From contig NC_037595.1 of assembly GCF_003073045.1 (NCBI RefSeq), positions 13,384,074 through 13,448,073 of the forward strand: a stretch of DNA of 64,000 nucleotides, written 5' to 3'. The notes below the pieces were generated by a model. That model did no database searches. It had not been told where the DNA came from and saw only the letters and a program-made list of their open reading frames with translations. Shown in pieces: positions 737 through 61,365 of this stretch. The translations under genes and the position numbers were made by a program. Position 1 is the first letter of the stretch. Every line of letters starts with the position of its first letter. Source of the DNA: Pomacea canaliculata. Lineage: Eukaryota; Mollusca; Gastropoda; Architaenioglossa; Ampullariidae.

Positions 737-1757
737 ATGGAGTCAGTGCTTTACCCATCTCACCTGTCACGGATTGTAATTCTGCAGGTAAGCCACTTAA
801 CTAAGCCACGAAACTACCTGTTATAAATAGATATGAGGAGACGAATCTGGTATCTCTGTCGTAGACGTCCACCTATCGAAAACTACGAAAAGAGCAAAAT
901 TTTATACTATATATATCTTGCTGTGAAAGAAGAAGTAGCAAGGAGAACGATTTGTCAATGTCTGCGGGAGGGAGGACGACCTCCATGGTGACATCTCTTT
1001 GACCGTCTGAGGATCTATCCATCTTAATGCAAGAACCCGTATTCATCTTGTTCGTGGCATTCTGTCTGTTTGCCACCCTACGTCAACTCTTCTATTTGAC
1101 CCAGAACGTTTTATCAGTAATTTATAATAATTATCAAAAACGTGTTAACGCTGCTATCACTATTTATTAAAACCGATTACATATAAATTTAACAAATTTT
1201 GCAAGACAATAATTTAAACAATATTAGTTTTATTATGTTTCTATCTTTCAGACAATTTTTTCCATATTGCTGTCTACCTGGTATGGGACCCTTAGTGAGG
1301 GTAAGAGTCAATTATATGAAGCAATAAAATAGAATAAAATTAAAATAGTGCATTGATTCATTAATAACAATAGACTGCCAGTTCTGAAGTACTTGTATAA
1401 AGTAAATCTAACGTTCCTGGCTTGTAGTAAACAAAAGTATACTACTGCCTTGCGGTGCACAACTGCTATGACAGATTTATAGTCATGTACATTGAATAAA
1501 AACTGCGTGATATCATCAAGCTACTTTTTAGAATGCATTCCTATCAACGATCAGTCAAATATTTATAGATATTGTGTCGACTAAACCATCATCTCCTACA
1601 ACAGCAGCAACCACAACGACGCCTCCCCCTGCATTCCCAGGACAGACTTGCAACGGACTGAACAAAGATTCCTGTGTAGCCAATGCATTCTGTAACAACA
1701 GCACCATCTGTCAGTGCAACGAGACGTTCTACAGCCTTTACAACTCTTGTGTTTCTA
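737..1757 (+). CDS. Gene A exons 1-3: signal peptide, Thr/Pro linker, first EGF-like module
   Basis: Exon 1 (737-787, starts [17 protein letters not shown]) and exon 2 (1252-1300, [17 protein letters not shown]) together give a hydrophobic N-terminus that fits a secretory signal peptide. Exon 3 (1569-1757) begins with a Ser/Thr/Pro-rich linker, including TTTTPPP, which is likely O-glycosylated. It then carries a six-cysteine EGF-like module with spacing C-x7-C-x5-C-x5-C-x-C-x10-C. The ATG was chosen because it gives the signal peptide, has a good context (GCCATGG) and matches gene B. Exon 3 ends in phase 1, as do the following module exons, so modules can be added or lost without a frameshift. 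Confidence 0.85.
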
Positions 1758-2866
1758 GTGAGTATCGTAACTCTCATTCCAACCTAGAGATATATACAAA
1801 TAAGACTTAGAGCAAACGAAATATTGTAATTAGCAACTCACTAGGTATATTAGACAACCTTTACAAAAAAATGATGTACATTAAAAATCACGGTATGTGC
1901 ATTCAAACTAATGAGGCTTCTGGAGAAGTCTTACATATTATATTATTATTTTTCGTAAAACGCGTATTCAGCTCGCTATTTGACAATGTTACGATTTAAA
2001 AATGATGTAGCGGTCTGTGCGAGTTGTCGCAGTGTCACAGTCACATGTAGTCAGAGTGAGAGTGAGACAGCAAAGAGTTGCAGAAGTGTGTCGCCGATAG
2101 TTTAATTGCTGTGTCAGGCGTGTGTCGCCTTTAGTCAGCGTGTGTCGCTGTGGTCAGAGATGTGAGCGCGTGTCGCTGTTGAAGTAGGAGTCGCTGCTAA
2201 AATAGTCTTAGCGTCTGTTGCTGATTTGCCAGCGTGTACAACACATGGACATTGTTGTACAAACTGTAAAGTTCTAAAATATCTTCGACTGCAAAGACTC
2301 AGTTTCTTGAAGACGTTGGTATAGTAGATTAAAAACCCGAAACGATCCATTGACGACGACATAGGTGCATGGGACTTCGCTACTTCGCTAAATATAATAC
2401 GGAACAATCAATCAACCAAGCTACTTTTCCCATAACAGCAGCCTAGTTCTTTTTCATACCTTCCCCCCTTTTCCGTTTATTGCTTCTTCCCTGCTCGTCT
2501 TCCTTTGGCAAAATCACAATACTCCCAGGTCTTGTTACCTTCTGTATTTGTCTGTTAATACAATTATGTATCATTTCATCGTTCCCATGCTGTTTTTTGT
2601 TGTTTTTTTCAGGGGGTGGGGGGTTGTCCCTCGTATGTTGCCCTTATCGCGTTCTTGTTCATAAGAGACATTTCTTCCCTTCACTTCAGTACCGGTTTTC
2701 TCTTTATTACTCGTCGTCGTTCATGTTATCTCCGTGTCTTTGTCTTGTACTTTATCTTCATTGTTAAATTATCTTTGTTTATATTTCGACCTAATTTTTG
2801 TATTAATCACTGAGTACATATTTCTATATTAATATTCTTCTTCTTCTTCTTCTTCTGATGATGATG

Positions 2867-2902
<36 letters not shown>

Positions 2903-5900
2903 ATGATTCATTTTCATTTTTTACAGAGTTATCTTTCTATCAGAACTAATCTATCCTTCTCTACGCCGTTATGTCCTAACAGATATTCAAAACAATATCT
3001 TTGGGTGGGAAATAGCGCCGTGAAATGGCTGACATCACTCTCAAATGTTCTGACATGTAGGTCACTGTTTTTTCAGAGGCTGCTTTAAATCAGAGCTGCA
3101 ATGATCCTACGTCTTGTAAGGACCCGCAAGCCGTATGTAAGGATGGGCTTTGTCAATGTCAGACTGACTATTACAACAACAAAGGCGCATGTTCTCTTAG
3201 TAAGTACACGTGGTTTGTATCTGGAGTAGCGCGTCTGTTCTTCTTTTATTTAGAAAGAGCAAGCGATTGTTGTAACCATTGAAAATAATAAAATCCTGAG
3301 ATAATTTTCTGCACATGTGAGAAAGCAATGATACACTTTTAAAATACTGGTGGTTTCTATCTTTGCTTCTTTCTTCCTATTTTCACGTTTTACAATACAG
3401 TACAACTTTTATTGAACTAGAAGACAATAAGTAAGCTGCTCACAGACATAATTGTGCGAGATACGTTTTGGATTATGAAGTCACAATGATTTTGAGATGG
3501 TTCATATGTGGTAGAATGTTTATATATTTAAGGGTTTTTTTTATTATACGTCTTGGTTTGCCAAGCTTATGTGCCTTATTACAGCCTTCTTTAACCACCT
3601 CACAAAACTGAAATATCTTTCACTTTTTCGCCTTTAGTTTTTTGTTCCATCATGATTCTACCAGCTTTTTTCCAGCATAACCCGTCGCTCTAGTTTGTGA
3701 ACATAATTGTGGTGCAAGAGTGAAAAGTAAAGACTGACCCTAAGTTGTAGCCAAGCAGTCAGAGCGTGAAACAAATCAGGAAGCGAGAAGAAAGAGATAA
3801 CTGACAAAGGTAGTGCGCGCGAACTTTTCTTGACACCAGAACCACAGCATGTGATGAAACGATTTGTAGTTTCTGTGTATGATAGAACTCTCTCCCTGTC
3901 CATATCCGCCACATGCCCACAATTTAATCCAACAAGAGCTCAAGTGTTGGCCAAGTGAGTAAACATCGTCATGTTTGCTGAAGCGAATTTTAGTTTGCAT
4001 TTCGTCATCTTTACTTTTGGAAAGAAAATGTCATACGAAAGCGAAAGTGAAAATATATTTAGAAATTCGACTTAAATCAGAAACCGATAAATCAGAACTA
4101 GAAAAACTAGTTAATGAGGACAAGAGAAAGAAAGACGAAGAAAAAGAGAGAAAGGAAAAGATAAGAGCGAAGTAAAGACTGTAAACGATGTGCTACAATT
4201 AAGAGAGAAAAGTAATCTCTGTTTCTGTACGCCTTGAAATGGCTGACACCATTCTCAGATTTTCTGACATGTAGGTCTCTGTTTTTTTCAGAGGTTGCTT
4301 TAAATATGAGCTGCAATGATGCTAGTGCCTGTAAGGACCCGCATGCCTATTGTAATGGAGTGTTGTGTCAGTGTCAGAGTGACTATTACAACAACAATGG
4401 CACATGTTCTCTTAGTAAGTACACGTGGTTTGGTATCTGGAGGCTCGCGTGTATTTTTCTTTTATTATGAAAGTTACGTGAGACATCTAGAAAAAGCAAG
4501 CGATTGTTATAACCATTGAGAATAATAAAATCCTGAGATAATTTTCTAAACATGTGAAAAAGCAATGACACATCTTTGAACTACTGGTGGTACCCACCTT
4601 TCTATCTTTGCTTTTTTCTTTCTATTTTCTTTCACGTTTTACAATACAGTACAACTTTTATTGACTCAGACGACAATAATTAAGTACGCTGCTCACAGAC
4701 ATAACTGTACAAGATAAGTTTGTATAGACTCTAAAGACCACTTGGGATTATGAAGTAGCAATGATATCTTTTTTAGATGGTTCATATCTCTGTCAAGCTT
4801 GTGCTCAACACATAGTAGCAGTGCTTTTAAAACTAAATGTTTTCGAAAATGTCAACGTTCCTGCTTCTACTAAAGTCATACAGAACCATATAATGCTCTC
4901 CCTGATCTTTCTGGTTTTCCAGACACTTTTGACACTTGGATTATGACAACGGAGAATAAAGTTAATAATTATAAATGGTACGAAAAGATCCTTTCTATAC
5001 CTGACAGTAAATTTATAAAGAAGAGACACTGAGCATAGGAACTAAATTATAAGAATGTAAATATCAGAATTAGTACATAAGAAGTCGATAGATTTGGGGT
5101 ATTCTGCACGTAAACACACCATTCTCAAATATTCTGACATGTAGGTCTCTGTTTTTTCAGAGGTTGCTTTAAATGGTAGCTGCAATGATCCTAGTGCCTG
5201 TAAGGACCCACATGCCTATTGTATTGGAGGGTTGTGTCAGTGTCAGAGTGACTATTACAACAACAACGGCGCATGTTCTCTTAGTAAGTACACGTGGTTT
5301 TGTATCTGGATGCGCGCGTGTATTCTTAATTCTCTTTTGTTATGTAAGTGAAGTTAGAGCAAGCGATTGTTGTAAGCATTGAGAATAATAAAATCCTGAG
5401 ATAACTTCTGCTCATGTGAGAAAGCTATAATACATTTTTAATGTAATAGTGGTACCCATTTTTCTATCTTTGTTTCCTCTTTTCTATTTTCGTTTACGTT
5501 TTACAATACAGTACACATTTTGTTGACATATAGGACAATAAGTAAGCTGCTCACTCAGTTATAATTGTGAGACATAAATTTATGTAAGCTCTAAAGACCA
5601 CTTGGGATTATAATTCCCGGAAAGATAACATTATCAAGTGACAAGAAAATGACAGTGTCAGAGAGCTGACACAAGTGATGATAGGTAGTCATTTCCCCCA
5701 AGCTCATTCACGATGGAAAAAAGGTCTTTCTTTTTTCATCTTTACCTAAATATCACAGAATTATGCGAACACATCATTCTGAACTTTCCTGACTTGTAAG
5801 TCTCTTTGTTTTCAGAGGTTGCTTTAAATGGGAGCTGCAATGATCCTAGTGCCTGTAAGGACCCACATGCCTATTGTAATGGAGGGCTGTGTCTGTGTCA

Positions 5901-8900: not shown

Positions 8901-11900
8901 ATAAATAAAGACCAGAGTAAAGATTGTCACTTTAGCAGTACCCTTTATTAGGGAGGTATCAAATTCCCTCATAATGCCTAGGGCTGTGGGGTCTGTATAG
9001 GCAACGAGACATGTTTTTGCCAGCGAATAAATAGTTTCTTACTTTGGATATGGGTTTGTTAAAACAGCCATTATTAAATGCATCATGTATTTGTTTAAAA
9101 TGTTAGGGCTTGGATACGGAGAAGTTTGTAATCCTGCAGTTGTCAACATGTGCAACCAGCTTCTGACCTGTCGCAGTCCTACAAACAGGTGTTTGTGTCC
9201 AAACGGCTCCTTCAGATACAACAACACGTGCTACTCAGGTGAGGAAAGAAAGAGAGTTTATTGTTTGTTTTTGTGCTTTGTGCTGTGTGTGCGTGCATGC
9301 GCAGTCATTTAAAAAATCCTCCTAGCAAATATGTATGGCGTACATAAGTAAAACATTTCCCTTTCAAGAAATCATTTTGATTTCAAACCCTTCCGTCTAT
9401 TCTTTACACACACACACACCCAGACATTCTCTTTTACTTGAAGTAAATAAACAGTATATCCCTTCTACTATCTACGTGTCTAAATTTATTCTGAGAACAC
9501 ACAATGTCACACGAAATGTACTGTACTAAATTCGTTTACACCTACGTTGGTTGCTATTACAATTAATTTAAAGTTGTTAGTGAGAAGAGGGAGGGTGTTA
9601 TACATTGTTTTAGTGTCCTCGTCCTCTCAAAACGGGTTGTAATATATGCAATTTATGCTACTTGAGCTTGTTTGTTTATTATAATTTCTTTTTCTTGCTA
9701 TTTTCTTCAGTGGAACAGTTAAAGGTAGCGGAGATAAAAAGCACTTTCGAGGAAACATCTCTCAATCTAACATGGAAGTCCCCCAATCTGGGTGCGAACT
9801 TCAGTTACAATGTGTCTCTCAACAATGGAAGGAGTAACGGGGTGACTGCACCATCAACAAGATTTGAGGGTTTAGCACCTGGAACACTCTACACAGCCAG
9901 TGTCGTTGCAAGCGTTGTGAGAGACCCGGGCTACGGTAACACTGAAGTGGAATCTTCACCTGATGTCTCCAACAGTTTTTATACGAGTGAGTGTCAAACA
10001 GTGCATGATTATTTTTGTTTAAAACGTAGAACCGATTGATATTTTGTATTGCTGGTGGGAGACATTGTCGTCGAGGGAGTAACTTCATAATCGCGAATAA
10101 TAAAATCACTGAGAAAAATTATTTTTCATGAGCCTTGATTATACTTTATCTCTCTCTCTATCAAACACACACACACATCTAACATGGTTGATGCTTTTTC
10201 TTTCATTCCAGAGCCCGCTATGCCCGGTCCTCTAAGTACAAATGTTTATTTGGGTCCAGACGTCAACCTTACATTCACAAAGTCTGCCGGAGTTGTGGAT
10301 TTCTACATTGTTACTGTAACACAGCGCGAGTCAAGTAGACTGTGGACAAAGAACATCAGCTCAGAACACGTCGAGCTCGCTAATCAGACGGCTGGAGCAT
10401 ATTACGATGTAACAATGGTAGCCTACAGTGGTGGCATTAGCAGTAATACCCGGACTGCAACCTACCGGGTGGAAGTTGACGGTAAGAAATATTTTATGGG
10501 TTTAACATAAGAAACGGTTTGGTTTTCGTTTATGTGTAATAGTTCTTTTCAAAACAAATACACGTGTTATTGTCGTAAAAGCCATCGATTTCTATGATTA
10601 TTTTGGTCAGATATAATTGGCCTTGCTAATTATACTTATTGACTATTGTAATAAACTTCGTTTAACTCAAAGAGTCAACACCAAAGTAAGGCAAAATGTG
10701 CATGATAAGTTTAGAAGACCCCCCCCCCCAAAAAAAAAAAAGAATCATCGCCTCACAAAAGCTAAAAAAAAAAAAATTATCTTAGAATCGAGAAACAAAG
10801 ATGATCACTTAAAATGGCAGATAGAAATGGTATATAGACAAAAAACGTATTGTTTTTGTTGCGTTTTATATTGCGTTTATGAATATAAAAATAGTCTGCT
10901 AATTTATGATGATACTGACTCACGACACAAACCATTGTTGTCCAACCAATTTTTTGAAGATTTTCGCGGTTCAAGTACATAGATTATCACGTCCGTCACT
11001 CACTTGTGATAATTTGACATTGAACAAATCACAAAGATTGCCTGGGAGGGTCAGTCGTACTAATTGAACGTGTTCTCTTTGCTACTGACCTCCGACATTC
11101 ACGTTTTAAAAACTAGTTGTTATCGCTACTGTTCAAAATTTACTGCCAATAAATCTTGTACATGAAGTTTGCTAAATTATTATCTGAGATGTATCGCTGT
11201 GTTCAGTTGCTGGGGAAGTCACACAGTTAACTGTGACTCAGCCAGAAAGCAGATGGGTCTATGTGAAATGGAGACGCCCGACAAATCCAAACGGAGAAAT
11301 ACTGGGCTACACTGTGACAGTCACTCGTTTGAACAACTCAACTTGTGTCTCAGGAGTCGCTGTTGTATGTTCAAACTGCAGCGAACTGGTATGTTACACG
11401 GCGTGGATGTTTCTGTGTCTCCAACAATATTTGTTATTCACCAAATTTAAAACAAAAATTTACATCTCGAGCACTGCTTTTTAGTTTGTCTTGACACTTT
11501 TTGTTATACATTGTTGTGAAATTATGCGACTGGTGCAACCGTATAATGTGTAGTTCCTGACCAGATGCTTCATGCTAAGCTGTCCATTTGCTCGATTGCA
11601 AAGTTTTATCTATCTGAGACAGTTCTCGCTCTCACGATATAGTGGAATGGTATGAAATTTACTTCATATTTTGAAGATTTTCATCCTACCTAGAATCGAT
11701 GTTGTACAAACCCAATGTGCATCGTTTTTCGTGATTGTTTCGCTGAAATCAATAAACCTACTGGTACTAGACAGGGTGAAATCAATGAAAATATTACAGT
11801 ACTAGACACGGTGCTTGCCTCACAACAGGCCAAGTCTGCCAAATTTTTCCCTACGACTCTCCAAAGTTGCGATATGATTGGTTATGACGTCACTACAACG

Positions 11901-14900
11901 GTCGGGGCGTCTAGCGGTTAATACTTGATTAATACTAATATTAATACTAGCCTCATCTCCTCCCGCTCTTTATTCATATGGAAATAAGTCAGAGAATAGC
12001 AAGTGTCTCATTAGAAAACAGATTTGAAACGATAAGCTTACTAATTGACTTTTCTATCTTAATTGGACAAAACTTTATCTCTAACCGCTTAAACAGAATT
12101 CAGCCTCACTGAAGAGGCCAGATGTTTCTAACTGTACTAAAAACGACTCCAAGAAGCAGACATATGAAGAGCTAAAGTCAGATACGTGGCAAGAAGTGAA
12201 CGTGACATCACTGTCCCCGTATGTTACGTACCAAGTGACGGTTGCCGCTGTCACCGAGAAAGGACGAGGCCAAGAAAGCAAAAAAGATTTCAAAACACAA
12301 AGTGAAGGTAATTACCTTGATTTCAATGTTAGAAGTTTTTTGTCGGGAAATGAATTTGTGCAAAAGACGTAGTCGCAACTTGTTTAACTGAAACGGACAT
12401 TGTAAGCTGACTGTTGAGTACATACTATGATGGAGATATTGCTTATATAGATAGTTTTAGGTATGTTATAAAAATATTTTTGTTACTTTTAAGCACCCCG
12501 AGTCTAAATTGTTCTTTAAGAGTCACTTTAAACATTTATTTGGTGTGAAATAGAATAAAATTCACTGAAAAACAAGCTTTAGGATTTTGTGTTTCTCATG
12601 TGAAGTTTTTTGTGCGTAATTTAGACAGATATCAGTTGGTGAAAAACAAAACTGATATTAAGCGTGAAACACAAAGCATTTGGGGGAAATTTAACCATGA
12701 TGATTTTGGTGGGGGATTTCAAACCACTTACAGCTGCAGAGAATTTGATAAGCTTGACTGTGGAGGAGCCTGGGACTGTTGGACAACTGAACATCACATG
12801 GGTACCAGGAGAGGAAATGGGTGACACCTCCTACAATGTAACATGGTTTGAAGAAACCAGTATTGGTTCTGAGCAGTTCATTTATAAAGGCGGCTCGATT
12901 CTCGTTGGTTAGTACAACATTCCTGTCAGTGTGAGAAAGAATATTTCTTTATAACAATTTTTGTGCAAAGTTATCTATGACAAGACCTTACAGCAAAGAT
13001 GCATTTAAACCATTTATTGACCATGGGGGAAAATATAGTGATAATCGTATACTGTGTTTGCGCAAATATTTATGAAAGGAGTTTTTTAACAGGTTACAAG
13101 CAGAATAAATACATAATCCATGGTCTTCTGAGCTACTGGAATTACCTAGTCAGTGTCAGACCTTCAACAGAAATCGGCCTTTCACCTGCCGAGAACTACA
13201 CCGTCGCTCGTACTTTGGATTCAGGTAATCTCTCAAGTGTCTCTTCTATCTCCCGGCTTCTGTCTTTTAGTCTTACTGTGTCTCTTATTTTTTAGGTACC
13301 TATATATCTCTTTCTTCCTAAGCTATTTAAAGTAATGGTGCAGGTGCTGTTCTGCAGTACTTTCAACAAGATTTTGCTATGATGACAGATAAAGATTCTG
13401 ATTCTACATGAGCATAATTCTGTGTCAATTAATTGCTCATTAATGTTATTATTAAAGAAGCTGTTTCACTCTTCCTGCTGAATATGGCTGTTAATGTCGT
13501 CGGATGACCATCTTAGCCTTATCATATAATTCTTTAAATAAGGATTGACAACTTGGAGTATTATGTAGATATATAGATTTATCCGTCATGGATGATGTGG
13601 TCCTGTCATTGAATGTGAATGTTTTGCTCATTTTGTGTAACCTGAACTACATACACTATTTTTTCAGCACCTGGCGAAGTCGAGATATTCACAATAAACC
13701 AGCCTTCAGACTCTGCAACATATCTTCAATTTACCGTCAGCTGCCCGAAAGAGAAAGAGAGAAACGGAGTTATCCTCTGTTTTGTTTTCAGAACTTTTGT
13801 TCTAGCAAATGAGGTAATTTTTTACTTACCTGATTGAAAGGATTTTTCGTTAAATAGTTTGGTTATCGTACTCCACCCGAACGAAGCGATAGTGAGATAT
13901 TAAATTTTTCCATCTTGGTGGGAGATACGTTTGCTATACATCATGTTTCAGACGCTGGGTTCTGTGAGTGCTACAAGAGGCTGCAACCAAAACTACACTT
14001 TTAAAGCTCCCGTGAAGGCAGAAACTAATTACACATTTGAGGTGAGACATGGACTTACACGTTATCGTGATATTCATACAAACTGCCTGTCCTTTTATTT
14101 CTTATCTACAATTGTCATTTGATAGTCATACAAACGAAATTCTACGTATTTGCTTAATCATACGCATATACAGCCAACAGTTGATTTCAGATTTTTGTCC
14201 ACAGGCCTTTGCAAAGACCAGCAAGCATGAAGGAATTTCTAAGACTAGCAAGTTTTATGTTGCACCTAGAGGTAAGGCACATCTGTTAATATTAGTTTAT
14301 ACAGTTTTTAAAGACATAACACATAAAACGAGTTTTGATAATGTGGCTTGTATATTTGTACATGTCTGTTTGTCGACGATGGGCATCATTCCTTACATCC
14401 AAGTGTATTTAAGCCACCCCTCTCTTAACTTCAGACTTCCCTGTCATTGTCTTAGTCATGTGTGTCCAGTCTGACCATGACTTGTCTCTCTGTCTTTATA
14501 ATTGTCATAAAACGTTCACAAAGAAAGGAAATATTTAGACCACTTGGATCCTAAATAACTTAATATCTTGCTGAAGCACAAACCCACAATTCTTTAGAAG
14601 ACTAGATTAAGAATAGTGTTGTATGCACTTGAAATGGAGATACCCGTGTTTATGCCAAATGTTGTGATGATCATTAACTGAAGTTTTGGAAATAATGTGT
14701 ATGCAGGGAACGAACAAACCGTACAGCGTTGAGTATTTGTCCAATATTCTTTAGTATGAAGGCAAAGAGCTTGGTATATGCAATACAGATACTGCCTTAA
14801 GGTTCGCTCATAGTGAATTGCAACAATGTCGTTAACTGATTGTTATTACATTTTTAGTGTCTCTACTCCTAGTACAATATCATCGTAACCTTTTTAAAGG

Positions 14901-17900
14901 TTATCGTATGGCAAAAAGACCTGCATTGTTGTTTCAGCTCCAACATTGACTGTCGATCCTGGCTTCGGTGGGTCACTTCTGAAAGATGCTAGTGATGTGA
15001 CCCAAACCTCAGCCGTGATAAATATCTGTCCTTGTCTGGTCACAGACCGCTCACAGGGACACATCACACTAGCAGGTCTTATAGTCTGCAATGGAAACTG
15101 CGAAACCTGTAAGGATAGTTAGACATTAGACATTAGACATTTCTAACTCTCGTTTTTACGTAGACTTCAAATCACAGAAAACAACCAAGAAACGTCTTGA
15201 GCATCAAAGTTGTAACAAAGCAATAGAGAAAAAAAAAACGTTTAATTTTGTGGTCATATTGAAATATTTGTTTCAAAAAAGTTTAGTTACTAATTCAAAA
15301 GGAGGTGGAAAAAGAGAGAAATGATTGTTAACTTGCCCTCTCTTATTATATATGACAGCTTCTGATCCTAATTATTTCCGATCTGGTGTCATGACGTGGA
15401 AAGAATTCAGGGACAAGGGCTATGAGGGAAGTTACAGGCCGACCCCTGATGACTGGCATGAGACTCAAGACGTTGGTGAGTGAGATGTTATCATACAATT
15501 CGCCTTCTAACAAGGAAATAACGGTAGAAACTGAAATAGATTAACAGACTTACAGAAAGAACTGAAGAAGTGCACAGTTAAACACCCTCGGAGGCACCTG
15601 AGTTCTGTCTCGGTCACAGTATTTGTAAAATTCTCCTGACAACAGCTCTTTGTACCCTCTCAGTATGTAACTTATTGAGCAATTGTCCAATAACTAATAC
15701 CAAAGCCACCATATGGTCAGTTGACAGTCCAGTACTGCTACATGGAGACTTATCCACCAATTAAATTTATCTCACTATGTGCTTTTCACAAACTGAAAGT
15801 AGGTTTTCCTGGAATCTTTTGACACTTTGGTGTCAATGTACTTTTTATGAAGGATAACAAATCAACCCCGCCTTGAAGATATTAATGAGTAATGTACATG
15901 TTTAGTTCTTCATGAGTTGGATTGGTGACCAACATTCTTCTGTTCAAACAGTGTCATCCCGAAAGAAAAGGTCAACCTTCCAGTCACGTTCCATCCGCGA
16001 AATTCTCAATAAGATACAGTTCACCTTAGGGGGTGACGTGGACTGTGAGCAGATGGACAAAAGTGTTTACTGTAACGGACCCTTGCCCCCTGGCTACACA
16101 TTTGTGTAAGTCTTCTGATGAAAAACGTTATCTCTTAGTCTGTTAATCTTAGTATTTTTAGTATTTTCTTTTGTTGTATTTTAATACTGTTCTAGAATGA
16201 TTTACTGATACAATCAATACCTAAGCAGTTATGTAAGTAATTGTGCTTGCTATCTGAGCATAACATTACTGCGAATGCAATTAATCTGCAAATGTATTGC
16301 ATCATGAGCGTGTCAATTGTTTTGACTGTTACAGAGTCAAGGTGTTTGCTTGTACCGCAGGAGGATGCAAACAGTCAGACACTGGTATTGTTATCATCAC
16401 CCTAGGTGAAGGGAAGTATCTCTCGCCAGCCCCACATTGTTTTCCTTGTCCTTCAAATTAAGGCTGATAATGACATAAATATTTATAGTAATCACAGGCA
16501 GAGGGAAACTTGGGAGGAAATCAATAGTTATTATACAAGCGCTTGTTATTGTCTATATCATATATCATTCATTCACTGTTTATGCAGTGGAAAAGGTCGA
16601 TGGTCAAAGATGAAACAAACTTTGTCTGCATTTTACTTATTTTTCAGGTATTGGTTGTAACTTGAATGACTGTAAAAATATGAATATTGAATTTTCTATT
16701 TTATTTTGAATGTAGAACCTGTAACAAACCTTGGGGCTGTAGTAGGAGGCGTCCTCGGTGCATTAGCTGCTCTCGTCATCGTTGTTCTGATTATCGTCTT
16801 CGTGAAGCGACGAAGCCGACGGTACGTAGAAAGTCTCCAAGGAAACAGGACGTCAGGACACGTGTCGTCAAAGGTGGACTTTGAAAACATAGAGAAATCA
16901 AGAAGTTACTCAAAGTCAAAGAAAAATATCAAATTTAAAATTTCTGTAGACTCTTTAACCCTCTCAAGGGTATTGAGAAACTCCTCGTTTTATAAAATGT
17001 TAGATGAGAAGATACTTTTAAACATTCTTTAGTTTCAGTGTATTTGTAAACAAATCACCCGATATGAATTCATGATTTTCTAGTTTATCCAAAGTCCATT
17101 TAGGCTGAACTCTTTCCGTGTTGTCTTCACAGTATTGATAGAACTAGATTTAAGTAGATAGCTATAAAACTGTTCTCTATGTTAATCAACTTAAGCCTAA
17201 AACTAAAAATTCTATTTTTGATAAGATCAACAAGGAAGCAGCCTCTCTCTCTAAAGACTGTACAAGATGGGGTGGACTTTTTATTTTGAGAATTATTTCT
17301 TAGAAACAGTAGTATAATACTAGTTTCACTTATTCAGATGACAATATTTAACAACAATAAGTATGTATTTGAAGAACAATTCTGTCAAAACATAGAAAGT
17401 TGTATACTAGTGGTAGTTGTGACTGCTTACATTTTAAATTAAAGCAAATGTGGATCTTGAAGCTCTGTCATATAAAGATTTATTTATTCATTCATAGTAG
17501 ACCTACGAAGAGGATCCAGAAGTATGTTCCAAGTATAAAAAGACTAAGGTAAGAACATAGTTTTCTTTTCTCTGATTTGAATGTTTTCTGTTGCACTGAC
17601 AACATAGTATAGAGATGTACATAATTTGGCTGTTATTCCCCTTAGTAGTGAAAACCTGAAGTGCTAGGAAATTTGTAAGACACCTGAGATCCCTCCTTAA
17701 AGGAAATAATTTTTGGCATAAAATTCTGTTTAGCACTAAGTATTGGAGACGGGTACTAGGGGAGGAGAACTTTGAAATCATAGTGTACCCATCACTCAGT
17801 CAAAGAATGGCTTGTCTGTCTGTAAAAGGCACTCAACTAAGCTGAGGGACTTCAAATCGCGATTGGATTTACTACATCGTGATTCCAACCTTCACTTCCA

Positions 17901-20900
17901 AGAGGAATTTCAGGTAGGTCGGTGTGTGAGTAAAAACTATTTCGGAATTAATGTTTAAAAAGCTTTTAGTTTAGCAAAAGATTTTTGATGCCAGCCGGCA
18001 TGGGTAAAAATGTCATAAATCCAAAAGATAAAAAAAAATTAAATCATTGCAATTATAAAGACTATCATGAACGACTATGCGTGATTTCTCGACTATACTT
18101 CTTCAAACAGACAAGCCCATTGACTCTGGCTTCCCTATGAATTTATAATTTATGATCCCTTGACTTAAAGCTGACCATACACGTTTGCATCATTTTAGGA
18201 CAAATATACCCAGCAAATACAACCTGATAATAACAGATATTTCAGTCTAGACTTAAAGTCTTTATCACATGTCATAGCCATGTTTGATACATACTACGTC
18301 CTGTAAATGTTTGGTACAGATAATACCAGCTACAGGGAAAGATTTGCTAGCATGAGATCACATTTCAAAATAAATTACTACATACGTGGAAATGTTTTCC
18401 TTCGTTAACCCTGTTAGTCTAAACCTTTGTGAAATGTGATAACAGGATCTGTGCAGCAGTCAGGAGAGACAAGCTTCACAATTCACGATGCGTGCAGGAA
18501 ACGAGCCAGTCAACCGTGTCAAGAACAGGAGTCAGGAGGCACTTCCATGTAAGAAAGGTTAAATAACGTCCTTTGAAAAAAACTATATCATCATAAAATT
18601 AATGTTTATACTTTTCCGTTTTCATCTCCGACTACGAATACGTTAAAAATTTTGATTTGCGCGTGAACTGTGAACTGTGGGGATTTTTCTAATCTTTCAG
18701 ATGACCATTCACGAGTGGTATTAATCAACAGTCAAAACAGCGACTACATCAACGCCAGCTACATCGCAGTGCGTGTTGAGCTTTTTTGTCAACCAGGTGT
18801 CAAAGTGTAATGTTACTGTGTCAGAGGTCTACAGAATTACAATTATTAATCTTGTTAATTGTTAATCTGGATTAACGTGATGTAAACATGTTTTCGAGAC
18901 TTCGTAGGCTGTTATGATACTTATATTTTCTTCATAACGGGATTCAGTTCTAAGCAAGATATTTTTCAGCTGCTCAACACTAGCATCCCAAACTATTTAC
19001 TTGTTTTTGTATCGTTGACAGGGAGCTGATTCTCCGTGTGAATACATAGCTACACAGGCACCACTGTATTCTACTCTGTCTGACTTCTGGCGAATGGTCT
19101 ACGAGCACAGGACAGGGGTCATCGTCATGTTATGTGACAGTGTAGAAAATGGAAAGGTCAGCGGAGTCTACAACTCTATTGTAAATATATATATAGCACT
19201 TCTTTCCAGCCTAGGGTATCTTCCTATATATTTCATACAATCTACATTTTTTTCCTTTACTTAGAAAATGGTTGACCCGTACTGGCCTGACGAAATCAAC
19301 GTACCAGTGCGACACGGCGAGCTGACTGTCACGATGACCGGTGTCTCTGTCCTTGATGCATATGCAATGCGCCAGATAAAAGTGACAATGGTAGGTGCTG
19401 TTCACATATCTTTAATAAATAGGTCTAAGCTATATATAAATATTTCCAGGGCTCTTGAAAGTAATTTTACGCAACTAACTTACGGATTTTTTATAATTAG
19501 GTGCGCGAAATCAAAGCAGAGGAAAGGAGTTAGAAATGTGGGAGTGGATCATGGGATTGGGGCAGACATTTCTTTTTCAAATAAGAAGTCCTATTTGATC
19601 TTCCATTTCATATGCCTTTTAAATATTTCTATTACTTTAGTAGTGTCTTAATCCAAACTATGATATTTGATTGGCCTTTTAAAATAAGTCTAACTATTGT
19701 ACAATTGTTGTTGTTGACTGTTTGTCTCTATGCAGAAAGATCGACAGGACCTGAGAGTTACCCAGCTGTGCATTCGTGGTTGGAGTGAGCGAGGATGCAG
19801 CATTCCTGCTGAAAAACTGATTGATGTCATCCGTGTTGCTGGTCGAGAGGCAACAAAATCGAGCGGACCTGTCACAGTCCACTGCAAGTAATGCGGACTT
19901 TGTATTATTAATCTAACATTCGTGCCATTATAGTTAATTGCTGTAATAAACGAAGGGCTTTCAATCGTAAACTATGACCAGCTGATTGGCTGAATATTTG
20001 ATTCACTTGTACAACACATTTAGCATCCGCTTGGTAGAACGAAGTTTTATTGCGACAAAAGAAACTTCTTGATTGTAAGCTGCATTGCTTCTTAGAAAAT
20101 GTCTTCTTTCTCTCCACATTTTTCAGTCTCGGCGTTGGCAGGACTGGCATGTTCATTGCCCTCGATCTTTTGACTCGTTTTGTGGACAACCACGCGCTAA
20201 ACCTTGTGGTGAACGTCTACGATGTTGTCCAGAGAATGATGGGATGTCGTCCGAACATAATTCAGACGCTGGTACTAAACATTTTTGTGCATTATATAAT
20301 GATACAAAACTTAGGTAAAGTCTTTTCTTCCTGAGGATCCTCACTCATTTTTCCTGAAACAAGCCGAATATCATCAATGTGCAATACTATTTCATTTTTA
20401 AAAAAATTGAGGTGGCTAAAACACACGCCTTAATGTAGATATCATGCATATCGTTCTCCTGAAACGATGACCAAGATTAAAAGCAGTAACCATATGCTTT
20501 ATGTTGTGAAGACCCAGTATATGTTCATACATGATGTCCTCGGGGTGATCATCGGAAAGAAGATGAAGAATGGCTCAAGGGGAGCCACATCAAGTGTTGT
20601 GTATCAGAACGAAGGGCACACAATCAACGAGTATAATGAGCTGCATGAACACAGTGAGTTATTGTTTTGTTTACACGCTGGGACTTTTTGCTTGTATGTG
20701 TTTGTATCTAAGGTCAGATGATTCATACATATAGCATTCTGTTAATTTGTAATCTTACAATATTTCTGATTTAGTAAAAAGAAAAACACTGTCTGTTTTA
20801 GATTCTTATTAGAAAATGTATTATTTTGGTGAAAATAATGTCTATTAATGTTTATAGCTATTGTTAGAGTAAAAATGTTTCCACTAGAGTTATTATATTT

Positions 20901-21164
20901 TATCACCAAATGCCCGACAGTATCGTTCGTTAGACGCACGTTTAATAGCTGAAGGTTTGTGTGTTACATAGTGTGGAGTTTTCAATATTCGATTCTGTAT
21001 TCTTTTAACTAGGTTTTAATCAGAATGGTTGCCCGATTGATATATTTAAAAGCTGTACTTAGTTCTTCATTAAAACACTTTGTTGATACTTACTGTTTCT
21101 TTTGTCCTTCACAGTTCGAGACGAGCACGTCTACAGTGCTCTTAATGAGCATCAGATGAAGTGA
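737..21164 (+). CDS. Gene A: EGF/FN3 receptor-type tyrosine phosphatase-like protein, probable pseudophosphatase (complete, 32 exons)
   Basis: Exons: 737-787, 1252-1300, 1569-1757, 3077-3199, 4292-4414, 5161-5283, 5816-5938, 9107-9238, 9711-9986, 10212-10481, 11207-11388, 12097-12307, 12734-12907, 13093-13224, 13668-13813, 13952-14041, 14205-14271, 14938-15108, 15359-15475, 15952-16105, 16335-16405, 16716-16821, 17498-17548, 17829-17913, 18446-18548, 18701-18768, 19022-19156, 19265-19390, 19736-19887, 20127-20271, 20512-20653, 21115-21164. They sum to 4137 nt, or 1378 residues plus stop. All introns are GT-AG and phases match throughout. Domains: signal peptide 1-33; EGF-like modules about 50-304; FN3 x5 305-820; membrane-proximal domain 821-991; TM 997-1021; PTP about 1044-1325; tail to 1378. 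The ectodomain closely matches gene B while the catalytic domain does not. Several catalytic residues are changed, so it is probably a weak or dead phosphatase acting as a signalling scaffold (inference). The acceptors at 17829 and 20512 have weak pyrimidine tracts and are the least certain junctions. Confidence 0.88.
1758..3076 (+). other. Intron 3 of gene A: imperfect short repeats and a compound microsatellite
   Basis: No coding exon was found. Around 2085-2180 the motif GTGTGTCGC recurs imperfectly. A 9-bp inverted repeat, TGTACAACA (2235-2243) and TGTTGTACA (2253-2261), could form a small hairpin. A compound simple repeat (TTC)n-(GATGAT)-(TTA)n covers about 2834-2902. Several short open frames here have unbiased composition, no homology I recognise, and lie inside the intron, so they are not called. 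Confidence 0.5.
3077..5938 (+). CDS. Gene A exons 4-7: four tandem EGF-like modules, one per 123-nt exon
   Basis: Exons 3077-3199, 4292-4414, 5161-5283 and 5816-5938 are each exactly 123 nt, phase 1-1, and read K(V/A)ALNxSCNDP... to ...CSLS. The six cysteines follow C-x5-C-x6-C-x4-C-x-C-x10-C, with the C-x-C signature of EGF-like folds. A DYYNN motif lies between cysteines 5 and 6 and makes a likely glycan or turn region. The flanking intron sequence is also repeated: a shared TTTTCAGAGG acceptor and a shared donor-side stretch GTAAGTACACGTGG followed by AATAATAAAATC. The whole exon-intron unit has therefore been copied. The ligand is unknown. Such arrays usually act as extracellular spacers or binding modules. 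Confidence 0.87.
3925..3954 (+). pseudogene. Decayed EGF-like exon relic in intron 4 of gene A
   Basis: The stretch ending GTGTTGGCCAA followed by GTGAGTAAAC matches the 3' end and donor of the functional gene B exon at 36638-36757 (ends TGTTGGCCAA, then GTGAGTGAAC). A similar relic with matching flanks lies at about 32665-32699 in gene B. The upstream half of the exon is no longer recognisable and the cysteine pattern is lost. I read it as a dead module exon that keeps its splice donor. Confidence 0.5.
6226..8654 (-). mobile_element. hAT-family DNA transposon, internally deleted, in intron 7 of gene A
   Basis: The element starts CAGGGATGGGCAAGCTACTT and ends AGCTACTCCCCATCCCTG, so the terminal inverted repeats are imperfect with outermost bases CAGGGATGGG. 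It is flanked by a perfect 8-bp target duplication, GAGATAAG (6218-6225 and 8655-8662), as expected for hAT. The first 200 bp carry several GTAGCCAGCTAC-like subterminal repeats, typical transposase-binding sites. On the minus strand about 7690-7982 encodes the transposase C-terminal dimerisation region: [20 protein letters not shown], then AVER, a TAG stop (7793-7791) where Leu is expected, then [21 protein letters not shown] possible N-terminal remnant lies near 8050-8110. The body of the transposase is missing, so this copy cannot move by itself. It is absent from the matching intron of gene B. Confidence 0.88.
9107..9238 (+). CDS. Gene A exon 8: last EGF-like module, distinct type
   Basis: The 132-nt phase 1-1 exon encodes [20 protein letters not shown] and continues with six cysteines ending [16 protein letters not shown]. 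Spacing differs from the tandem modules, and the C-x-C pair is followed by PNG. It is the module joining the EGF array to FN3-1. The gene B counterpart at 41329-41457 is one codon shorter (VVN in A, VD in B). The shared intron sequence upstream (TTGTTTAAAATG) confirms that the two exons are homologous. Confidence 0.86.
9711..14271 (+). CDS. Gene A exons 9-17: five fibronectin type III domains
   Basis: FN3-1 (9711-9986) and FN3-2 (10212-10481) are single-exon domains. FN3-3 uses 11207-11388 plus 12097-12307. FN3-4 uses 12734-12907 plus 13093-13224. FN3-5 uses 13668-13813, 13952-14041 and 14205-14271. FN3 hallmarks are visible: a core Trp on strand B ([27 protein letters not shown]), the E-F loop Leu and Tyr ([26 protein letters not shown]) and Ser/Thr/Pro ends. 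FN3-3 has an unusual cysteine-rich insert ([12 protein letters not shown]) probably bridged internally. NxS/T sites are frequent (NNSTC, YNVT, NYT). Each domain begins and ends in phase 1. These beta-sandwich repeats form the stalk or ligand-binding region, as in R3 receptor phosphatases. Confidence 0.87.
14938..16405 (+). CDS. Gene A exons 18-21: membrane-proximal extracellular domain with furin-type site
   Basis: Exons 14938-15108, 15359-15475, 15952-16105 and 16335-16405 encode residues about 820-991. The start ([20 protein letters not shown]) and end ([20 protein letters not shown]) look like the two halves of an FN3-like fold. They are split by an insert with [20 protein letters not shown] and a basic site, SSRKKRS (residues 918-924). 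RKKR fits the furin consensus R-x-K/R-R. Cleavage there would yield a two-chain receptor held together by the fold, as known for LAR- and PTPRM/K-type phosphatases (processing here is inference). The gene B counterpart has RRKRS at the same place. Confidence 0.82.
16716..17548 (+). CDS. Gene A exons 22-23: transmembrane helix and juxtamembrane segment
   Basis: Exon 22 (16716-16821) encodes a short linker, then a hydrophobic helix [20 protein letters not shown] followed by IIVFV and the stop-transfer cluster KRRSRR. The GxxxG-like spacing (GGVLGA) could favour helix pairing. Exon 23 (17498-17548) adds a small basic segment with [12 protein letters not shown] leading to the PTP domain. The donor after 16821 is GTACGT. 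Without splicing, the frame stays open to 17032 (see findings). Confidence 0.83.
17829..20271 (+). CDS. Gene A exons 24-30: PTP domain with altered catalytic motifs
   Basis: Exons 17829-17913, 18446-18548, 18701-18768, 19022-19156, 19265-19390, 19736-19887 and 20127-20271 give a full-length classical PTP fold. Landmarks: [20 protein letters not shown] (N-terminal helix), VKNRS (S1101, usually Tyr), [25 protein letters not shown] (usually QGP), [29 protein letters not shown] (1231-1236, usually WPDxG) and VHCNLGVGRTG (C1266 and R1272 kept, usually [10 protein letters not shown]). The P-loop is split by a phase-2 intron after CAC TGC AA. The nucleophile and the phosphate-binding Arg are present, but the pTyr-recognition Tyr, the general-acid Asp and two P-loop residues are changed. 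This pattern resembles inactive D2 domains, so it is probably a pseudophosphatase. Confidence 0.83.
20512..21164 (+). CDS. Gene A exons 31-32: end of PTP domain and ITAM-like tail
   Basis: Exon 31 (20512-20653) starts [19 protein letters not shown], the last helix of the PTP fold. It is followed by a tail with three tyrosines: VVYQNEG (Y1346, YxN type), NEYNELH (Y1356) and, in exon 32 (21115-21164), HVYSALN (Y1369). YNEL and YSAL are both YxxL, separated by nine residues, which fits the loose ITAM rule YxxL/I-x6-12-YxxL/I. The stop TGA is at 21162-21164. The tail is as long as that of gene B (63 residues from the TQY/KQY exon start) and has three tyrosines at similar places, but the motifs differ. 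Confidence 0.8.
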
Positions 21165-21403
21165 CGACCACTTTTCTAAGAGACCACTTTCTCTAATGAC
21201 AAGAACTAAAACAAGATGAGAGAAGCTCTAAGGACAATTAAAAAAGAGACAGTAAATCATTTCCACATACAGGCTACAGCAGGCAGTCTCTGACTTCCAC
21301 AGTCGTGAAACAAAGATTCAATCTTAAAAGTGGATTTGTATTTTTCAGTCATTCAATAGTGAATGTTATCGTGTAGATCAAACGAAATAACTATGTGATA
21401 CCT

Positions 21404-21409
21404 AATAAA
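21404..21409 (+). terminator. Candidate polyadenylation signal of gene A
   Basis: AATAAA lies 240 bases after the stop codon and is followed directly by an A run. A second candidate lies near 21588. Which is used cannot be told from sequence alone. Confidence 0.35.
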
Positions 21410-24240
21410 AAAAAACAGTAATGCGATTATCTATACAGGTTCATGAACATGTAGTGCTTTTATAAAACACACACATTCACTTCATTGTTTTCCAAGACAA
21501 TGACACAAATATTTTAGGATGTATATAAGCAACATATTTAAATGCATAAGCAGATGCTATATTATGCTTGTTCCAAAATCGTCTGAAAATAAACTTTGTG
21601 TTTTTACGGTATCTAGTATAATCTCTGAACGATTTAACTTTACAGGAAAGTAAGCAATGAAACGGAGCGCCTTCAACTGTTGATGTTACTTCCCCTTTCA
21701 ACTATCTCCATTGATAAATAGGATCAAGTAATTAAGTTAAAAGGGATCACAACAGACGCAAAAGAGTTGTTTGCCTCCACCTCTCCCATCACGCCCCACC
21801 CCTTCCCAGTGATTGCTGCAAAGGGAGAGGTCACGTTCCCTTCTCTCCTCATTTATTTAAATCATTCTTGCTATTCTTTCTTTAGAAGCACGCCAAACTG
21901 ATTTACTTTACACTACTAACATCTGTTGGCATTTGTGTGTCACCGTTCTCTACCTTTCAACATTTTATACATCAGGCTGCTCATTAAAGTGTCTCTGTTG
22001 CTAGGAAACACCCATGAACGGGCTGATTATTGATGTTATTATCACCTCATTACTCACAGACATAATAATTATAGTTAGAAGGACAATGTCGTCAATATGT
22101 ATAGAATATAAAACAGTAGCTCAAACGATATAAGTGGGAAATCAAAGGTCAGGCAGAGATGAGATCGACCGTTTGGAGAGATCACATGAGACGAACACCA
22201 CAAACGCTGATACAGTGGAAAGGAAACGAAACATAAACAGTGCGTCTGATGTCTCGTGCGCAGAGCAATGTTCGGGGTAATCCTTAGATAAACATTAATC
22301 TCAAGCAGACGTATCTCTATTTGCATTTCTGTCAGATCCCACAATATCACCAGTGGCCGACATTGCGTTCTGACCTCAATGCAAGAAGACTACTAGAAGG
22401 AGAACTAGAAAGGAGTGTTGAAGGTAGTACTGAGTAAGGATATCCTCGTCGTACTCTGTAATTTAAAAGCCAAGTCGACCCAGATGCACACAGAGAGTGG
22501 GCATGAATAATAAGCAGATTTAGTCTAACGGAAAGAATGAACGAGGTGTAAAGTTGTCACACGCCCATATTCTCGCAAAAGGTCAAGGAGGGTAGCCTGG
22601 TATTCCCCAGATGGCTTTATATGGGAGACCAAAGCAGACTTGGAAAAGAACAGTAGAGAGCGAGGCAAAGGATACATAGGCCCAACTGAGGGGGGTTGCC
22701 ATATACCGGATCCGCTGTGCATATTTAACTATTTTAATATAGCATTTTTCCCCCCAAGAACAATGGATGAAGTTTTCTTGATTGAAATGAAAATAATCCA
22801 GACCATACGGTAAACCGCAAAGTCAATGACAAACAGTCCAGAAAAAATATGTTATCTACAATTGATTTATTAGAGTAACACTAAAAACCGCTGGTTACTT
22901 CTTTTTTGACGGGTCATAAATTACTGAAAGCATTTTTTAGGGGGACTGCACAGAACACAATGCTTGAAATGGTATTTTTATGGTAGGCATAAGTGGTTAA
23001 TGTCTCCGTTAGTTAGCAGACTGGCAGGTTTTTATGCTGTTTTGTTCATCTTCTCTGCACCTGTATCGTGGTCGTTTCTCTCTTTACATCAACGTGTTGT
23101 CAGGGGCCAGGTATAGAATACAGTTAATTGATGTCTTTTTACCCTTGTTTGTTTCTTTCTTTTTTCACATTTTCTGTAGAAGCTGTAGAACCAGTTATCC
23201 TAGAAGTAAAATATGATCTCCTATACTTTCGACAAGGATGTCAACTATTCAAGGATCCTTGAACATGTTAGCCACACTGCGATTTTGATTGCAGTATTTG
23301 CTTTCTGCACGCCCTTCTGTGCCACATTTTGCTCATTTACAGAATACCTCCCAACAAGGAAGTTACATTTCACGATCCAATGGGACCGATAACGAAACCT
23401 GCAATATGAGTTAACTGAAATGAAATATTTGTTTATTGCAAACAGGAAGGATAAAACTGAGCGTTGACAATTACAATTGTTTTCCAATACTAGTGTGGTA
23501 GAACTAGAGGAACAAGGAAAACGATACGAAACGCATTAAAGCTGTCTCGTTTGATAAATATTCTCCTCTTAAAAGACGTCCTTATTGAACAACTTCAAGC
23601 ACTTGAAGCATACATAAGTGCGTGGGATTTTCCCAGCGTGAAAAAATCACTACAGTCTATCCTCGCTCGTAGACTTATTTAAGCTACTGTGCTATGCGGA
23701 AGAAAGAATAGGACGACGCCCGAAGCCTGAAACGGAAGAAAATGTGCTCTTTTCGAAAGGAGATGGGAATTTAAAAAAAATAGTATATTTACTGCACCAA
23801 CTTCGTTCTGCGCTGAGTATTATTCTAGAAAAAAATTAAGTTGTGTGAAATCGTAAACGGCATTCCGACTAGAACTGCTGTTGCAACAAGATTAAAAGAT
23901 TTTGCATTGTGTTTCTTTTGGTTAATCATTAAGACACATCAAACCTGGTTTTATCAGAGGTATTAGATAATGTTGAAGGTAGTGGCATTTGTTGTTAGCA
24001 GCTGCAGCGACAGCGGTGATGAGGTCTACATTCTCTGTCTTGTCTTTGTGCTGGGTGATGAGAGAAATCCGTGTATGATCGCGTGCGTGTGTATAATTAA
24101 GTATTTGCATGTGTGTTTTGTATATTAACACGCTCATACATGTTGAGATACAAGAACTTTAGTTACATTAGCATCTTTTAGAAAGATGGCTTTCGAGTTC
24201 TGCCACGATAACCCGTTTTGACAGGAGAGTGATGTCCCTT

Positions 24241-24665
24241 GTACTGTCACGTCTGCGCCATCTTGCCATTACTTAGATTTGAGATCTATACATGGCAGTG
24301 TCGACTTCAAACTCTGATTACTTTACTGCTGCTACTTTAGAAAGTTTTGATGTTGAGTTGTCACAGCAAGCTTTTCGTGCGATACAGACAAGTCTGACAT
24401 GACTGACATCACGTATCTGCATTTTCAGCTTACAATCACGGTTAGTGTGTTGCTCTCACAAGAGTTGTGTTGATTGAACGATATTTCTATCTGCGAAAGT
24501 TGGGTCACTGCACCGAAGATTGCGAGTGTACCTCCATACAAATGACACGATAACTTTCAGATATTTTCAGATGCAGAACTTTATTGACTTGTAGATTCCG
24601 TGTAATAGCAAGGCTGCACACTGCATGTGTTCAATGTCTTCCTTTTGTCGCTAGTGGTCAGTGCA
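24241..24665 (+). repeat. Dispersed repeat, copy 1 (intergenic)
   Basis: The stretch from CTGTCACGTCTGCGCCATCT to about CTAGTGGTCAGTG closely matches 54311-54738 in the same orientation. Shared runs include TTGCCATTACTTAG, GGCAGTGTCGACTTCAAACT and TCTATCTGCGAAAGTTGGG. It has no obvious terminal repeats or coding content. It may be a non-autonomous mobile element or a segment copied between the genes. Confidence 0.65.
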
Positions 24666-25139
24666 GAGAGTGCGACCTATCATGGCGGGTTACAAGTGCA
24701 CACATTATATTAAACGTCACTGAAGGCAATGGCTGGGACGGCAGTCTCTGACGACGAGTGGCACTGCCTGTCCTAGTCACTGTCTTGACATGCAGCCTGA
24801 CCTACCTGGTTCACTGGGTTTTTCTTCCGGGTACTGTTACCAGAAAGTAGCAAGTACATGTAGACTTTCTCTAGTCTACTTGTAACCTCGGCTATAGCTT
24901 CCGTTTAGCCAAACGCCTGCCATTTTAATTTTGTACAGGCTACCATGGCTGCAGCCGACAAAAATATATGTATATCTGTTACTTTCGTAAACAAAACTTG
25001 GATGGAACATGCCGTGTAGAAACATAAAACTTATTCTCTTCAATGTCCGAGAAATATCAGTGAGAACTACAGCTTATGACGTTGTCGCTCACTTTCCCGA
25101 TAAACATCAAGAACTACCGGGTGCATGGCTAACTCCAGA

Positions 25140-26242
25140 CATCAAGAATCAACAGCCACAGACAACAACCACCGGTGAGACTCTCAAGCGCGACAGTCAG
25201 GTGATAAAACTTTCCCATAGAAGTGACAGTGTTCGGAACGAAGAACGTATGCTTATGTCATATTCCACACAAACAACTCAGAAAACATGTTCCAAAACAA
25301 CAACAACAGTCCGTAACGAGCTTTAAACCATATAAATAACACACGTGGAGTGTGTAGACCTTTGGTCAGGAAAATCAAACAGAAAGCGATATTTTATTTA
25401 AAATCATTTTGTTCAAACAAAGCCCAGGTATAACTGCCTACATGCGTACATCCATTCAGTCCTGGCAAACTTTCGTGTCATCGTGACGCTATAGAGGTAA
25501 AAGTTGACGGCCTATTGTGTGTGTGGAGTGGGTCACAGATTTAGCTCTGTGCGCGTCACTGCCGAGCTTCGCTTGTCTCATCCTCGCAGCTATTTTTAGC
25601 CCTCGCCGCGCCGAAAGGTGCGTTGGACACAGAAGTCGCTCGCACGCTCGTCGTCGTCGGCGTTATCACTACAGGGGTGGAACAAGGAAGTACATTTGAA
25701 TGGACCCCAGTCTTGTTCAGTCACACCCAGTGGCACCTACCTACGTAGCTATGTGTACGCGGCGAGATAGTCTGGGTGGCCGATGTGTGTAGCTGACAGT
25801 GTGTTGTACAAGGAGGCCATTGTTGTACGACACGCGTGTTGCTTAGACTGAAGGTCAGGCGCGTCCGGTTGAGTGGTCGTGTTGTACTGAATTCCCTAGC
25901 TGACATCTGTTCGCTGTCACTGTCTGCATTATACAAACTAACGACAACAATGCTCGCCGTGTGTGTAGTGCTGCCAAGGGGCAAGTAACTGGAGAGTGTG
26001 TACATTGTGTGCTGAGAGAAGTGACACACCTGTGCTCTGGTTCCTGATATACACAACTTCTCAGTCGAAGGTACTGAAGTGTTTCGACGGCTGATTTTGT
26101 GAGTAAGAAAATATAATTTTAACGTATCTAGGTCTTGGAGTTCAGAAAAAGAAGACTGTGACTACCTGACTGTGAATTTACTACCGGGTTTCATGTTTCT
26201 CGGTTGACGGGTGTGGTCGAGTCATACAGGTGAAATCGTGCC
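25140..26242 (+). promoter_or_regulatory. 5' flank and probable promoter/5' UTR of gene B
   Basis: This region is homologous to 1-736. Conserved segments include GTGACAGTGTTC near 25222 (ATGGCCGTGACAGTGTTC near 62 in A), GTGTAGACCTTTGGTCAG near 25360 and ATTTTGTTCAAACAAAGCCC near 25407. It ends GTGCCATGGAGTCAGC at the start codon. TATAAATA at about 25331 is a possible but unproven TATA-like element, far from the ATG. A CpG-rich stretch lies around 25590-25660. Confidence 0.4.

Positions 26243-61365
<35,123 letters not shown>

Follow-up and report, generated by a model that had tools for sequence, protein, structure and literature searches.

Adjacent receptor tyrosine phosphatase genes with near-matching ectodomains and different cytoplasmic ends in a tandem array of Pomacea canaliculata

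Vertebrate KIR, SIRP and CD300A/CD300C receptors are encoded by tandem paralogs with near-matching ectodomains and different signalling ends. The restraining member of such a pair carries an ITIM and the activating member uses an adaptor, whereas at the locus described here the corresponding elements would be a phosphatase and an ITAM of the receptors' own. For CD300A/CD300C it was described that the ectodomain similarity is kept or created by recombination (PMC12447643; this and the other papers are cited for those parts of their text that were available). Receptor pairing has been suggested for invertebrates before (PMC2413239, PMC12065747), and for Hydractinia Alr and Botryllus fuhc a balance of ITAM and ITIM signals with proposed activating and inhibitory receptors is discussed; the available text does not describe them as receptors with PTP domains (PMC12065747). 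Draper/CED-1/MEGF10 represents an invertebrate receptor type with a cytoplasmic ITAM acting via Src42A and Shark, so that the logic of Src-family kinase, ITAM and Syk is possible for an invertebrate receptor (PMC4503800), and Pez is a PTP family protein serving as adaptor in this path (PMC7902905). Clustered receptor tyrosine phosphatases (RPTPs) with Cys-rich repeats and variable ectodomains are known from the gastropod Biomphalaria sudanica, where those of the SudRes1 region were linked to schistosome resistance (PMC12297450). The original prediction for the locus regarded a paired RPTP system with a pseudophosphatase partner in an invertebrate as new. Pairing in invertebrates as such is not new; neither a paired system of active and inactive RPTPs nor an ITAM-bearing RPTP turned up in our literature search, which is thin evidence of absence.

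The window, i.e. the whole stretch of 64,000 nucleotides that was analysed, corresponds to C6:13384074-13448073 of a genome of 440,159,624 bases in 24 contigs. As predicted, it contains two adjacent duplicates on the plus strand, gene A at 737-21164 (start codon at 737) and gene B at 26243-61365 (stop codon ending at 61365). Both share a layout of a two-exon signal peptide, EB-type modules, FN3-type exons and a furin-like site, followed by one transmembrane exon, eight PTP exons (P1-P8), whose frames are open and whose borders read AG/GT, and a short terminal exon. In gene A the signal peptide starts in exon 1 (737-787; ATG, donor GTAAGC, with a homologous exon in B and in the array unit G3 introduced below) and ends in exon 2 (1252-1300; AG and GTAAGA borders). 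Six EB-type exons at 1605, 3077, 4292, 5161, 5816 and 9107 were found by an exon search against B and cover 1605-9238 with approximate borders. The FN3 and membrane-proximal ectodomain exons, also from the exon search, extend over 9711-16101 and include the furin-like sequence SSRKKRS; they are followed by the transmembrane exon (16716-16821, donor GTACGT), the PTP exons (17829-20653) and the terminal exon (21115-21164). In gene B, exon 1 (26243-26293) is located about 5 kb upstream of exon 2 (31009-31057). Eight EB-type exons at 31311, 32253, 33142, 36624, 37120, 38479, 39468 and 41329 span 31311-41457 (approximate borders), the FN3 and membrane-proximal exons with SSRRKRS 42031-55495, the transmembrane exon 56069-56174, the PTP exons 57085-60496 and the terminal exon 61307-61365.

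The ectodomains of A and B nearly match, as had been claimed: of 532 aligned codons, 85.9% encode the same amino acid. They had been described as EGF/FN3 ectodomains, of which the FN3 part holds (fn3, 95.7 bits for B), while the repeats score as EB and not as EGF (PF01683, 94.6 bits for B); both scores refer to composites that we assembled. With an FN3 ectodomain combined with one PTP domain (one PTP exon set per gene among the matches listed) the genes resemble the R3-type RPTPs PTPRJ, PTPRB, PTPRO and PTPRH, whose tails are of YxN type, as is that of B. They differ from the R3 type by their EB modules and by PTP domains whose best PDB matches are to the two-domain RPTP alpha; for the PTPRJ-type membrane-proximal domain (PTP_tm) the score is 19.5 bits at a cut-off of 26.3 bits. 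The vertebrate pairs differ from the snail genes in that the cytoplasmic parts of the latter are PTP domains, and Draper/CED-1/MEGF10 differ from A in having no PTP domain. The SudRes1 receptors carry MEGF and galactose-binding domains and tandem PTP domains, and an inactive partner or an ITAM tail is not mentioned in the available part of that report (PMC12297450). A stretch of 400 bases with 82.5% identity is shared between the A-B spacer (24239-24637) and a B intron (54310-54699); it falls outside the A-to-B gene alignment and is probably a dispersed repeat. Long ORFs on the minus strand at 27883-30560, between A and B exon 2, have no Pfam match over cut-off; of six TE-like ORFs tested, none has one.

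A profile search revealed PF00102 exons in tandem at C6 13.299, 13.345, 13.380, 13.403 (A), 13.442 (B) and 13.469 Mb among the matches listed, out of at least 157 in the genome, and tblastn added a disrupted PTP unit at 13.358 Mb. The array thus holds at least seven PTP units, named in order G1, G2, G2b, G3, A, B and G6, of which five are A-type and two (B and G6) B-type. This rules out a simple A/B pair; the claimed paired-receptor layout holds with regard to the similar ectodomains and the different signalling ends. Frames are open through P1-P8 in G1, G3 and A. In G2 exons P1-P5 are clean and P6-P8 indel-rich, and G2b is indel-rich in most exons; these dense small indels look like unpolished sequence. 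The only run of N in the 264-kb region, 100 bases long, sits between G2 and G2b next to the indel-rich copies (window coordinate about -34752, C6 near 13.349 Mb). Further large clusters of PTP exons occur, among the matches listed, on C9 at 7.4-7.6, 12.6-13.2 and 24.9 Mb and on C14 at 11.8-11.9 Mb, showing a big RPTP expansion in the genome. A relative 0.6 Mb from the array (L022, C6:12776200-12780200) has YAN motifs downstream and is likely an outgroup of the array.

The PTP domain of A departs from the active type at three positions, reading KNRS, WSE in the WPD loop and Leu at C+2 (HCNLGVGRTG). G1 and G3 share KNRS and HCNLGVGRTG, with WSE in G3 and SSE in G1. The A-type P-loop pattern has four exact matches in the genome, all within the array (G1, G2, G3 and A), and none in the reversed control; the canonical P-loop pattern has 37 matches versus seven in the reversed control. 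B and G6 agree in their P-loop sequence and read KNRY and WED, the latter a form of the WPD loop on which the original prediction was silent, and in B the catalytic Cys, Arg and Asp are intact, together with the predicted canonical P-loop. The degradation that had been ascribed to the A domain applies to KNRS, WSE and HCNLG; the rest of the domain is kept, including the catalytic Cys and Arg, a Q-loop Gln and the fold (PF00102, 227.7 bits over 51-281, versus 274.5 bits for B). HD-PTP (PTPN23), which is considered here together with the pseudophosphatase IA-2, is experimentally inactive and altered at the same three places, the Tyr of KNRY (KNRH), the Asp of WPD (WPE) and the Ala at C+2 (Ser), with Cys kept; back mutation of C+2 alone gave activity back, and the C+2 change accounts for the inactivity (PMC2661844). 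Unlike A, HD-PTP is not a receptor and has no ITAM tail. By these motifs the A-type PTP is predicted to be folded and probably inactive.

The tail of A contains YNEL-x9-YSAL, the second half of which is encoded by the terminal exon, and the tail of B three YxN motifs (YMN, YAN, YMN), of which YAN (as YANT) falls within the PTP exons and the third motif in the terminal exon. Both the ITAM-like and the YxN tail are thus present as originally read. The broad form of an ITAM is YxxL/I-x6-12-YxxL/I, into which the spacing of 9 in A and G3 fits; the strict spacing of 6-8 is not matched by the A tail. Shuffling the 49-residue A tail produced an ITAM pattern with a spacing of 6-9 in 0.21% of cases, and shuffling the B tail produced three YxN in 0.28%. 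Since the shuffles were run after the motifs had been seen, conservation in G3 and G2b weighs more. The terminal exon of A has an in-frame counterpart in G3 (IGDEHIYSALNEQEVK, spacing 9) and an identical one in G2b; YSAL is lost from G1 through a frameshift caused by an insertion of 4 bases, and small indels disrupt the exon in G2. In the two tail exons the three YxN of B occupy comparable positions, and frames downstream of the PTP locus at C6 12.778 Mb (G0) contain YAN twice. This suggests, with homology judged by eye, that the YxN tail may be older and was altered in the A-type. The YxN motifs presumably point to binding of Grb2-type SH2 domains and not to an ITIM, so that B could restrain only via its own phosphatase. 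By motif, then, the signalling ends are ITAM-like in A and an active-looking PTP plus YxN in B.

It is conceivable that the ITAM-like tail is incidental and that A-type proteins are decoys or dimer partners which share the ligand of B and damp its signal, either through competition or as partners in dead dimers. The pseudophosphatase features on an intact fold would agree with this, as would G1, which lacks the second tail motif and yet has an open, constrained PTP frame. Since the YSAL exon is nevertheless kept in frame in G3 and identical in G2b, we consider such a role unlikely.

Between A-type PTPs, dN/dS is 0.375 (0.25-0.56), 0.412 (0.28-0.61) and 0.475 (0.33-0.68). As these 95% intervals are below 1, purifying selection acts on the A-type PTP, and A is not a dead gene. 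The constraint is weaker than for the B-G6 PTP, with a dN/dS of 0.115 at a dS near saturation. A and G2 differ over P1-P5 by a dN of 0.012 and a dS of 0.118. A tree built from 13 PTP sequences and drawn with a midpoint root places the A-type in a clade (100/100) on a long stem (0.99), joined by B and G6 at 95/90 and next by G0 at 92/88; B and G6 appear as sisters with only 85/75. Twelve further PTP loci were compared, which we chose from about 60 listed. The P-loop is readable in 11 of them, SAGIGRTG being among the forms, and the WPD loop in eight (seven WPD, one WID). The twelfth locus (L026, C6:29783600-29785400, minus strand) has a frameshift in the P-loop exon, which would be either an assembly error or the mark of a pseudogene. 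As active-type motifs are found in B, in G6 and G0 and in most of the loci sampled, the inactivity predicted for the A-type would most simply be a derived state.

All this might also result from ordinary birth and death of duplicated adhesion-type RPTPs, with chance recombination, relaxed decay of A and no paired function. Such a history would fit the uneven array members, with G2b and part of G2 disrupted, the relaxed dN/dS and the large PTP family present in other parts of the genome. It is improbable to much the same degree as a decoy role, given that dN/dS of the A-type PTP is clearly below 1 and that G1, G3 and A have retained the motif set.

The comparison with RPTP alpha bears on a further role. 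The A domain scores 155 bits against D2 and 130 bits against D1, and B matches both about alike (205 and 199 bits). PTPRK uses its D2 domain to recruit Afadin, a task that requires no catalysis (PMC6440744), and the A domain could similarly be a docking module that recruits substrates independently of phosphotyrosine and delivers them to B or another phosphatase. However, it stands alone, with no active D1 in the same chain among the matches listed, and we judge this role quite unlikely. Retention of Cys, Arg and the Q-loop Gln might further indicate that A is active on another substrate, as Glu in the WPD loop of PTPRQ (WPE) is linked to its lipid phosphatase activity on phosphoinositides (PMC2661844). 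This is very unlikely, as A also has Leu for Ala at C+2 and KNRS for KNRY, and HD-PTP with comparable changes had neither activity (PMC2661844).

The ectodomain and the PTP domain of B have discordant histories. For one common set of 374 ectodomain codons, dS amounts to 0.093 (95% interval 0.06-0.14) for A-B, 0.288 (0.21-0.37) for A-G3 and 0.244 (0.18-0.32) for B-G3, and in all eight ectodomain blocks A is more similar to B than to G3. In the PTP domain dS is 0.262 for A-G3, 0.316 for A-G1 and 2.75 (1.58 to infinity), i.e. saturated, for A-B, and in all eight PTP exons identity is lower for A-B than for A-G3. Comparison of the two sets of dS values indicates that A-G3 divergence is equal along the gene and that of B is not. 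The transmembrane exon sides with the ectodomain (A-B 81%, A-G3 67%), and the order is reversed in P1 (76% versus 86%); therefore the similarity flips at about 56175-57084, the B intron between both exons, which would contain the recombination border. The cytoplasmic part of B is thus clearly not A-like at a recent age. Amino-acid identity of the B PTP is 67.4% to G6 and 44.6% to A. At the nucleotide level B-G6 exceeds A-B in P4-P7 (85, 60, 73 and 75% versus 67, 52, 60 and 55%), while P1, P2, P3 and P8 give 65, 67, 66 and 65% for B-G6 versus 76, 67, 69 and 68% for A-B. An origin of the B PTP from G6 would accordingly be firm only for the middle, P4-P7, and the designation as G6-type also draws on the amino-acid identity. 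Near G6, no B exon query matched an ectodomain at E 1e-4; when the search was relaxed, three weak matches appeared (E 0.47-2.5), none of them convincing.

B is best read as a recombinant that combines an ectodomain taken from the A lineage after G3 had diverged with a PTP that is older and looks active; most simply, the two would have been joined by unequal crossing-over or conversion. Recombination is also the best explanation for the match of the A and B ectodomains. With regard to the order of donors among A, G2 and B, dS over 142 codons is 0.058 for A-B, 0.065 for A-G2 and 0.093 for B-G2. Since dN/dS of the A-B ectodomains is 0.73, their binding faces may be diverging. That B is an assembly chimera is highly improbable: the array does contain a 100-base gap and indel-rich stretches, but a chimera of present loci would be nearly identical to its sources, and B differs from every present copy (ectodomain exons 5-12% from A, PTP 15-40% from G6) with exon phases that run through.

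These results can be combined into one explanation, consisting of a tandem array, a recombinant B, an inactive A with an ITAM-like tail, a shared ligand and antagonism, which as a whole we hold tentatively, at slightly less than an even chance. A and B are members of a tandem array of single-domain RPTPs, in which B would owe its ectodomain as well as its transmembrane exon to the A lineage, after G3 had split off, with an older PTP joined to them. The ITAM-like tail is common to A, G3 and G2b, next to a folded, probably inactive A-type PTP. A and B would see the same or a related ligand, and Src-family kinases would phosphorylate both tails. Unable to dephosphorylate itself, A might recruit a Syk/Shark-type kinase via YNEL-x9-YSAL and act as activating receptor. 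B, drawn to the same ligand, would dephosphorylate the A tail or its surroundings and thus restrain, and might bind Grb2-type SH2 domains through YxN. The array, the motifs, the selection and the discordant histories can be read directly in the sequence, from which we infer the inactivity of A, the ITAM function, the shared ligand, the antagonism and the cell type concerned, including an immune setting. As in known paired receptors, A and B are adjacent paralogs on one strand and combine near-matching ectodomains with discordant cytoplasmic histories (dS 0.093 versus saturated); the number of EB exons, which differs between the two, speaks against the full explanation, as do the tail spacing of 9, the disrupted second YxxL in G1 and G2, the weaker constraint on the A-type PTP, the limited support for a G6-type PTP in B and the ectodomain dN/dS of 0.73.

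It is rather unlikely, though well worth considering, that the snail has an invertebrate activating/inhibitory system built from RPTPs, in which an ITAM-bearing pseudophosphatase is set against an active phosphatase that shares its ligand-binding face, having gained it through recombination. If this is true, A would to our knowledge be the first ITAM-bearing RPTP, and the paired system would have arisen apart from the vertebrate Ig-type ones. Should the function hold, paired signalling would have evolved on a third kind of scaffold, where the restraining receptor has a phosphatase of its own in place of one recruited by an ITIM. As clustered RPTPs are tied to schistosome resistance in another snail (PMC12297450), the finding may also have practical reach. 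The matched ectodomains and discordant PTP histories offer a clear test for selection of recombination that keeps a shared ligand. Even without the proposed function, the array would provide a clean ectodomain swap and a constrained clade of pseudophosphatases.
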